NCBI GenBank assembly: GCA_022770525.1
Contig: JALEHN010000047.1
Span: 1 to 64,000 of the forward strand
Reading direction: 5' to 3'
Origin: Clostridiales bacterium
GTDB lineage: Bacteria; Bacillota; Clostridia; Lachnospirales; Lachnospiraceae
Length of the DNA: 64,000 bases
Below, one piece after another: positions 28,957-31,165 of the stretch. The translations under genes were made by a program, and so were the position numbers. Every line of letters starts with the position of its first letter. The first letter of the stretch is position 1. The notes below the pieces were generated by a model. It worked only from the letters and a program-made list of their open reading frames with translations. It did no database searches and was not told the origin of the DNA.

Positions 28957-28997
28957 CCCATAAAGTTAACATAAGTATATTATGTTAACTTTATGGG
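28957..28997. other. dif-like recombination site candidate: 18-bp arms, 5-bp spacer
   Basis: A perfect inverted repeat: arm 28957-28974 (CCCATAAAGTTAACATAA), spacer GTATA, arm 28980-28997. The inner 27 bases have 11-bp arms AGTTAACATAA and TTATGTTAACT around the short core. The right arm differs by one base from the XerD arm of E. coli dif (TTATGTTAAAT), and the core resembles its TGTATA. The repeat ends at the base next to the stop codon of the XerS-like recombinase. There is no T-run on either side and the stem is AT-rich, so it is a poor terminator. Function as a Xer site is inference from these matches and position. Confidence 0.65.
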
Positions 28998-30053
28998 CTA
29001 TGATTCACGAAGCCGGACAGCAGTGGCGGCCAGGCGTCTGCGGTCATCACCGATGGCTGCATAATGTTTCTTTGTTGTGTTTATATCTTTATGGCCAAGG
29101 ACATCTGCAACAAGATAAATATCACCTGTTTCTTTATATAGGTTCGTGCCATAAGTACTCCGAAGTTTATGAGGGGTAATATGTTTGTTCGGTGTAACCT
29201 GGACTGTGTATTTATGGACAAGGTCTTCAACAGCGCGGACACTGATCCGTTTGCGCTGCATTGAAAGAAAAAGAGCATTTTCGTGACCTTCATGCGGTAC
29301 GATGCGGTTTCTGTCATTGTTCAGATAATCATAAAGCGCAATTTCCACCTCATTGCCGAAGAAAACGTACATCTGGCTGCCGCCTTTTCGGGTAACTTTG
29401 ATGGAGTTGTTTTTAAAATCGACATCATTAAGGTCAAGACCGACACATTCCGAGACACGGATACCTGTACCCAGTAAAAGTGTGATGAGGGCAAGATCAC
29501 GGAATTTTGTCTTTTCATAATAAGCTTTTTTCTGACCGGTCAATTGTTCACCGCATGATTCAATATAATCCAAAAGACTTGCAACCTCATCAATATCAAG
29601 CCTTATGATCGCTTTTTCATGGAGTTTCGGCATATTGACAAGCATGGCAGGATTTGTATGAATCACCTGGCGTTTATAATAATAGTTGTAAAAGCTTCGC
29701 AGGGAGGACATCTTACGGGCAAGACCTTTTTCGGTGTTCGTAATGATTTTATCATTACCGTCATAAAGCTTTAAGTAATCCTGATATTCTTCAATATCTA
29801 CCGGATGTAAACGGTCAAGATCGGCAGAAGTAAAATCTTTCATATGGTAGTCTTTGAAATCCGGCTTTTTTTCAATGAGAAAATTAAAGAAAATTCTTAA
29901 ATCATATGCATATGAAATCCGTGTTTTGGGCTGCGTTGATGACTCAATGGCTCTGAAAAAATCTTTGCAGAAATCCGGAAGCTGCGAAAGAATTTCACGA
30001 AGATGGATAGTATTATCAAGATTCATTTGTTCATGATAAGTTAATTCACGCAT
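28998..30053 (-). CDS. XerS/XerC-like tyrosine recombinase
   Basis: 351 residues. The N-terminal SAM-like DNA-binding domain is long (residues 1-150). The catalytic set is complete: Arg199 (GTGIRVSE), Lys223 (TRKGGSQ), His295 and Arg298 (TPHKLRSTYGT), His321 (LGHKDINTT) and Tyr331 (KKHYAAI). Length and the extra linker SCGEQLTGQKKAYYEKTKFRDLALI resemble streptococcal XerS, which acts alone in chromosome dimer resolution next to its own site, more than XerC or XerD. No other phage gene is nearby. The dif-like palindrome abuts its 3' end. Resemblance to XerS is judged from memory. Confidence 0.85.
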   Translation of the reverse strand: MRELTYHEQMNLDNTIHLREILSQLPDFCKDFFRAIESSTQPKTRISYAYDLRIFFNFLIEKKPDFKDYHMKDFTSADLDRLHPVDIEEYQDYLKLYDGNDKIITNTEKGLARKMSSLRSFYNYYYKRQVIHTNPAMLVNMPKLHEKAIIRLDIDEVASLLDYIESCGEQLTGQKKAYYEKTKFRDLALITLLLGTGIRVSECVGLDLNDVDFKNNSIKVTRKGGSQMYVFFGNEVEIALYDYLNNDRNRIVPHEGHENALFLSMQRKRISVRAVEDLVHKYTVQVTPNKHITPHKLRSTYGTNLYKETGDIYLVADVLGHKDINTTKKHYAAIGDDRRRLAATAVRLRES

Positions 30054-30165
30054 ATTTATGTACCTCGGTTTTTTCTGATAAATGAATTATAACGCGGACG
30101 ATCCGCTTTTGTCAATGCAATCTTCGCAATAAACCTGTATTTAGCGCATAGATTGAAAAGCCGGT

Positions 30166-30241: not shown

Positions 30242-31165
30242 TTATAGTTTTTCAAGAAGCTGTATAAAATATTCCGGTAACGGTGCTTCAAATTCCATGT
30301 ACTTTCCGCTGGCAGGATGAACAAATCCAAGCACTTTGGCATGAAGCGTCTGCCCCTGCAGATGATACGGACATTTTGCGGGTCCGTATACAGAATCTCC
30401 AAGCAAAGGATGTCCGATACTTGCCATATGCACGCGAATCTGATGTGTACGGCCTGTTTCCAGTGTACATTCTATATATGTGAAATTTCCAAACCGCTTA
30501 AGCACTTTATAATGTGTAACAGCCGGCTTTCCGTTTTTATAATTGACAGCCATTTTTTTCCGGTCATTTGGTGAACGTCCAATGGGAGCCTCTATGGTGC
30601 CTTCATCATCTGTAAAGTTGTTATAACAAATGGCGTGATATTTACGGGTAATTGAATGTACCTTCAGCTGTTCGGCAAGAAAATTATGTGCATGGTCGTT
30701 TTTGCATATGACAATGACTCCGGTCGTATCTTTATCGATCCGGTGAACAATTCCCGGCCGCATGACACCATTGATCGTAGATAAATGATCTTTGCAGTGG
30801 TATAAAACGGCGTTGACAATGGTATGGTTTTCGTGACCGGCACTGGGGTGCACGACCATATCTTTCGGTTTATTGATTAATATAACGTCATCATCTTCAT
30901 AGATGATATCCAGAGGAATGTTTTCCGGCTCAATATCAAGGCTGACAGGCTCAGGAAGGTGTACTTCTATCCTCTGACCATCAGAAACCTTATAATTGGC
31001 TTTAACGGGCTTTAAATCGGCAAATACAGCCTCAGACTTAATAAGCTTCTGCAAATATGAACGGGACTGATCCGGCATCATTTCGCTCAGATATTTGTCA
31101 ATACGCAAGTTATTGAAAGTTTCATCAACAATAAATTCAAAAATATCCAGGTTCATATTATTCAT
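30242..31165 (-). CDS. rluD: RluA/RluD family 23S rRNA pseudouridine synthase
   Basis: 307 residues. An N-terminal S4 domain (LRIDKYLSEMMPDQSRSYLQKLIKS) precedes the synthase domain, with the catalytic aspartate in GIVHRIDKDTTGVIVI and the later LETGRTHQIRVHMA motif. It modifies uridines in large-subunit rRNA; the exact site is not readable. AAAGGCAG lies before the ATG at 31165, which sits within the last codons of lspA (8-base overlap). It is third in aroB-lspA-rluD. Confidence 0.93.
   Translation of the reverse strand: MNNMNLDIFEFIVDETFNNLRIDKYLSEMMPDQSRSYLQKLIKSEAVFADLKPVKANYKVSDGQRIEVHLPEPVSLDIEPENIPLDIIYEDDDVILINKPKDMVVHPSAGHENHTIVNAVLYHCKDHLSTINGVMRPGIVHRIDKDTTGVIVICKNDHAHNFLAEQLKVHSITRKYHAICYNNFTDDEGTIEAPIGRSPNDRKKMAVNYKNGKPAVTHYKVLKRFGNFTYIECTLETGRTHQIRVHMASIGHPLLGDSVYGPAKCPYHLQGQTLHAKVLGFVHPASGKYMEFEAPLPEYFIQLLEKL

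Follow-up and report, generated by a model that had tools for sequence, protein, structure and literature searches.

Xer systems that depend on a single recombinase have been described in two settings. The XerS/difSL system of streptococci and lactococci consists of one recombinase and a site linked to its gene (PMC5357621); XerS itself has been described in these bacteria (PMC9765430) and, besides them, in one Lactobacillus genome (PMC3025954). In Campylobacter and Helicobacter, XerH, a protein of 353–363 aa, is paired with difH, a site of the TGAAAAC-N-TTTTCAAA type that usually lies beside the gene (PMC2731167). For the Lachnospiraceae, a major gut family, no description of a dimer-resolution system was found in the literature searched, nor was any paper joining XerS, dif and Lachnospiraceae.

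A second activity relevant here is the unloading of SMC complexes by XerD, on which the primary paper is reportedly that of Karaboja 2021. Passages in three papers name XerD, not XerC, as the key protein for SMC unloading at the Bacillus subtilis terminus (PMC8242196, PMC12322038, PMC13342612), and one of these passages calls XerD a ‘sequence-specific unloader’ of SMC in that organism (PMC12322038; also cited in PMC8242196). Phages, too, make use of Xer recombination, as exemplified by XacF1, which integrates at dif through the host Xer (PMC5666396).

We have analysed a stretch of 64,000 nucleotides from a Lachnospiraceae draft genome (GenBank contig JALEHN010000047.1, positions 1 to 64,000), referred to as the window. 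A preliminary description of this DNA joined an XerS-like gene and the palindrome that abuts it into a one-recombinase dimer-resolution system. We conclude that gene and palindrome have probably been paired wrongly, and consider it rather probable that the XerS-like recombinase serves dimer resolution together with a different, 34-bp site, while a separate, XerC-less XerD acts on palindromes of the terminus. The features of the locus are as follows.

28957..28997, no strand assigned: perfect palindrome with 18-bp arms and a 5-bp core, CCCATAAAGTTAACATAA-GTATA-TTATGTTAACTTTATGGG
28964-28990: conserved part of the palindrome, two inverted XerD arms, AGTTAACATAA-N5-TTATGTTAACT
28998..30053, minus strand: gene for an XerS-like tyrosine recombinase of 351 aa (ORF and NCBIfam profile)
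30086..30115, minus strand: sigma-70-type promoter match, TTGACA-18-TATAAT, 12/12 to consensus, between the 34-bp site and xerS
30120..30153, minus strand: 34-bp imperfect dyad, ATCTATGCGCTAAATACAGGTTTATTGCGAAGAT, 66 bp upstream of the start codon, proposed dif of the XerS-like recombinase

An XerS-like recombinase encoded at the terminus

The top NCBIfam model for the 351-aa recombinase is XerS, with 197.1 bits; because the score does not reach the cut-off of 267, we name the protein XerS-like, and in this form its earlier identification as a homologue of the single-recombinase protein stands. Its translation contains the catalytic motifs GTGIR, KGG, HKLR, LGH and HY. An E-value threshold of 0.001 gave orthologues in 60 of the 61 related genomes, and most of these proteins are 45–73% identical to it over the full length. 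Two genomes carry two xerS-like genes each: in G003 they are merely 4 kb apart (G003:C2, 103222 and 107061), and in G417 they are on contigs C12 and C24.

A GC-skew switch at the locus had been anticipated, and was found. The cumulative skew of the window (whole-genome skew being sampled by region) peaks at 30961, ∼2 kb from the palindrome, which places the palindrome and xerS at the terminus. In the complete genome G109 the skew peak falls within xerS, with a palindrome 7 kb off, and in the complete genome G289 it lies 12–14 kb from two palindromes and 58 kb from xerS.

The expectation that separate xerC and xerD genes would be absent was borne out only for the former. Profile searches of the window-genome assembly did not find XerC, but did find XerD (TIGR02225; 357.6 bits, cut-off 329.6), so that the XerS-like protein is not the sole Xer recombinase of this genome.

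The palindrome at the end of the gene

Coordinates confirm that a 41-bp palindrome with perfect 18-bp arms and a GTATA core begins at the very next base after the stop codon of the ORF at 28998-30053 (−). Its inner arm, TTATGTTAACT, is indeed one base different from the XerD arm of Escherichia coli dif, TTATGTTAAAT (dif sequence quoted in PMC3025954). When up to three mismatches were allowed, the 11-5-11 core had a single match in the window and none in 100 shuffles; in the 3.2-Mb draft genome the palindrome is essentially unique, the one other match being a half-site with three mismatches. A classic XerCD/dif pair was considered and rejected, as no XerC was found and the palindrome is symmetric (11-5-11) rather than asymmetric (11-6-11).

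Relatives keep the inner 11-bp arms and their 5-bp spacing only, and not the outer 7 bp of each arm. The family motif is RGTTWACATAA-N5-TTATGTWAACY, and the consensus arm derived from the family palindromes, TTATGTAAACT, matches the XerD arm in the dif of B. subtilis at 11/11 positions (ACTTCCTAGAATATATATTATGTAAACT; PMC3025954). When the gap was left free between 0 and 14 bp, the spacer was 5 bp in nearly every match (∼58 matches, with 2 exceptions). Across 1.43 Mb surrounding xerS, 18 sites scored 18 bits or more at gap 5 and 4 did so at gap 0, with none at gaps 1–4 or 6–11; gap-5 sites were found neither in 400 kb of sequence distant from the terminus nor in Markov-simulated sequence. At 47 of 57 loci no ORF of 100 aa runs over the palindrome, as compared with ∼20% of random positions.

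The strict motif is present in 67 of 397 family genomes, at 1–3 copies per genome and often at 2 or 3. Where xerS could be located in the genome, 66 of 84 palindromes are on the xerS contig and 61 of 84 are within 50 kb of the gene, where 2.5 would be expected; most lie kilobases from xerS, on either side, at distances of up to ∼90 kb and once 145 kb. In multi-copy cases the cores are unlike one another in 26 of 27, and such non-matching 5-bp cores argue against recombination between palindrome copies. Some palindromes occur in tandem, 50–60 bp apart (G606:C21 291053/291111; G288:C64 133882/133942; L108; L112).

These distributions bear directly on the model of the preliminary description, in which the XerS-like recombinase works as a homotetramer and takes the palindrome next to its gene as dif. 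The palindrome does abut the gene here, it lies within 170 bp downstream of xerS in five other genomes (G261, G150, G013, G361 and G091), its symmetric arms fit a single protein and its position is at the terminus. It is missing near xerS in most relatives, however, and instead of the one conserved copy per chromosome beside xerS that had been predicted, we find 1–3 copies with differing cores, mostly kilobases away, whose presence tracks XerD rather than XerS (see below). Copy number and poor conservation thus disqualify the palindrome as a one-per-chromosome dif for XerS, a role that suits the element upstream of the gene, which is better conserved, single-copy and has phages beside it. We therefore regard the homotetramer model as very unlikely.

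Equally little credence, in our estimation, is due to the palindrome being an operator or transcription terminator of xerS. It directly follows the stop codon, and as RNA would fold into a hairpin of −25 kcal/mol (z = −7.1), but there is no U-tract and no terminator call at the palindrome, homologous sites occur among other genes as far as ∼90 kb from xerS, and both the fixed 5-bp spacer and the XerD-arm identity would be left unexplained. The outer, non-conserved parts of the arms may nevertheless act as a hairpin here.

A conserved dyad upstream of xerS

The 34-bp dyad, ATCTATGCGCTAAATACAGGTTTATTGCGAAGAT, is present in one copy in the window genome. Alignment of the xerS flanks of relatives yielded the dyad consensus ATCTATACGACAAATACCGATTTTTCCAAAAGAT, and a second type of dyad upstream of xerS reads AACTATTCGCGAAAN6TTTAACGAATAGTT. 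At a matrix threshold of 20 bits, 116 of 132 related loci have a dyad no more than 1.6 kb from xerS, upstream every time, as against 0 of 80 equal-size control windows, in which the highest score was 9.4 bits; since the matrix was trained partly on the scored xerS loci, the weight of the 116/132 rests on these controls. A stringent pattern for the dyad matched 34 of 299 genomes, with a maximum of one copy each, and in 22 of these 34 carriers the site is present without XerD, on which it therefore does not depend.

Among 63 distinct sequences, the arms of the dyad are equal, the pairs 1-34, 2-33, 3-32, 4-31, 6-29, 9-26 and 12-23 to 15-20 are conserved, and the centre (positions 16–19) is variable. 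Conserved pairs about a variable centre are the layout of a tyrosine-recombinase site. It is well supported that the 34-bp dyad, and not the abutting palindrome, is the better dif candidate for the XerS-like recombinase; it would be here that strand exchange takes place. The earlier proposal of a dif-like site linked to the gene thus survives for the upstream dyad and fails for the palindrome. The promoter, which is a consensus match only, lies 5 bp from the 34-bp site, an arrangement that suggests autoregulation of xerS.

The pair resembles XerS/difSL in having a recombinase of ∼350 aa, an adjoining imperfect dyad at the terminus and XerS as best-scoring NCBIfam model. In contrast to the 31-bp difSL, with its unequal arms and 11-bp centre, the site is 34 bp long and has equal arms; in addition, the protein falls under the XerS equivalog cut-off, and XerD coexists with it in about half of genomes. 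With XerH/difH it shares a single recombinase and a site by the recombinase's own gene, but the arm sequence is another, and the match to the XerH structure is weak (E = 1.5e-5).

Phages beside the 34-bp site

On three IMG/VR contigs the 34-bp site is adjoined by phage genes.

L335, 1833-1866: 34-bp site adjoined by phage genes
L334, 5183-5216: 34-bp site adjoined by phage genes
L337, 8588-8621: 34-bp site adjoined by phage genes

On L335, xerS is followed by a TtcA-like gene, then by the 34-bp site and by filamentous-phage genes, which include those for a Zot/M13 pI ATPase and a Rep_trans replication protein. In both L334 and L337 the 34-bp site apparently marks the end of a phage with a weak Zot match, and the palindrome and xerS lie beyond. 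These elements are likely to be mobile and to exploit XerS for putative integration. In G013, a full 34-bp site is contained within the 3′ end of an ORF for a G2P-type Rep protein (L282 = G013:C2, 10777-11742), which adjoins a LysM gene resembling one near xerS in the window; xerS of the same genome, on another contig (L283 = G013:C24, 5422), has an altered upstream copy, TCACTTACGACAAACACCTATTTTTCAAATAGAT. The full and the altered copies resemble the pair of ends expected of an integrated phage.

The situation is similar to that of the inoviruses at dif (XacF1 and CTXphi), in which filamentous phages integrate by way of the dimer-resolution site of the host (PMC5666396); it differs in that site and recombinase are here an XerS-like pair, with no XerCD. 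By analogy with XacF1 at dif, the inoviruses at the 34-bp site suggest that this element is a working recombination site.

Viral contigs scanned for the Mediterraneibacter/Dorea-type site contained none, and a shorter pattern of it matched one tailed-phage contig. Sites of the AACTATTCG type, with the pattern AACTATTCGNNAAAN6TTTNNCGAATAGTT, were found on more than 120 viral contigs (L295-L374 and further); these belong mostly to tailed phages, and the sites adjoin terminase genes (47 contigs, median 637 bp). Integrase-less integration and phage dimer resolution are both possible roles for these XerS-type sites.

The palindromes follow XerD

XerD was found in 206 of 397 family genomes and not in the other 191. 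It is present in 63 of the 67 palindrome genomes, the exceptions without detectable XerD being G033, G197, G353 and G411; of the 330 genomes without a palindrome, 143 have it (Fisher p = 4.6e-16). A second set, of 50 named genomes, overlaps the 397 partly, and its palindrome status is known within 10 kb of xerS only; here XerD is encoded in 11 of 13 genomes with a palindrome and in 2 of 37 without. L102 and L108 are the palindrome genomes of this set that have no XerD, and among the 11 XerD genes one is partial and contains an internal stop. The presence of the palindrome therefore follows XerD, not XerS.

Shared ancestry accounts for part of this link. There are only ∼15 changes of XerD along the XerS tree; of 10 edge-disjoint contrasting pairs, 8 are in accord with an XerD–palindrome link, and the strictest pair test gave 5:0 with 9 ties (p = 0.06). 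The strict palindrome is lacking in 143 of the 206 XerD genomes, which implies either degenerate sites in those genomes or another role of XerD.

XerD arms on both sides, association with XerD and position at the terminus would also be expected of a symmetric dif used by XerD alone, making up a second, XerD-only resolution system, and long uninterrupted arms have a precedent in the dif/XerL of Legionella (PMC9765430). Such a function is difficult to reconcile with several copies per terminus, some of them 50–60 bp apart, and with non-matching 5-bp cores, which would block strand exchange between copies; moreover, XerS with its own site is found in nearly all palindrome genomes. We consider a XerD-only dif unlikely. 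Clustering at the terminus, multiple copies and tandem pairs might instead recall the binding sites of some other terminus protein, such as a Tus/RTP-like fork-arrest or MatP-like macrodomain protein, but the arm is that of B. subtilis XerD and the presence of palindromes follows the xerD gene, so that a protein other than XerD is a highly improbable occupant.

Two proposed systems at one terminus

In the reading that we favour, with XerS and XerD each having sites of its own, chromosome dimers would be resolved by the XerS-like recombinase alone, acting at the 34-bp dyad (30120-30153), a site that filamentous phages would exploit as well. This role is consistent with the computed link between xerS and the 34-bp site and with the phages beside that site. 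The palindrome abutting the gene is a predicted binding site for an XerD dimer, its two inverted arms being separated by 5 bp. XerD, whose gene is located elsewhere and which has no XerC partner, would occupy the 1–3 palindromes near the terminus; binding there is suggested by the motif identity, the fixed spacing, the terminus clustering and the co-occurrence with XerD that we have computed, together with the differing cores. At the palindromes, XerD would remove SMC complexes arriving at the terminus, independently of XerC and of recombination, as in B. subtilis.

The likeness to XerD/SMC in B. subtilis, judged from the dif arm, lies in the clustering of XerD-arm sites at the terminus and in XerD, rather than XerC, being the protein that would act there. 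The sites here are unlike those of B. subtilis in being inverted pairs of XerD arms with a 5-bp spacer, dimer resolution would be the task of XerS, and the window genome is without XerC. SMC unloading by XerD at the palindromes is thus put forward by analogy with the B. subtilis protein.

More tentatively, and with a little less than even confidence, we propose that the Lachnospiraceae have split the jobs of XerD, such that an XerS-type recombinase with a 34-bp dif resolves dimers and the orphan XerD is an SMC unloader at palindromes only. The arrangement would be a variant of known Xer systems, and what is new in it is that XerS and an orphan XerD may divide the labour between them. The evidence supplies dimer resolution in the Lachnospiraceae with a candidate recombinase and site, along with phages located there. 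If the proposal is correct, the split is a natural separation of XerD function, one that could be lost together with the sites in many lineages. The separate palindromes would make it possible to test whether XerD has a role in chromosome organization without one in recombination, and also to ask how SMC is removed in genomes that have lost XerD. One relative, G164, whose assembly is 99% complete, has the palindrome and XerD and no XerS match; a reversal or a replacement of the dimer-resolution system is possible there.
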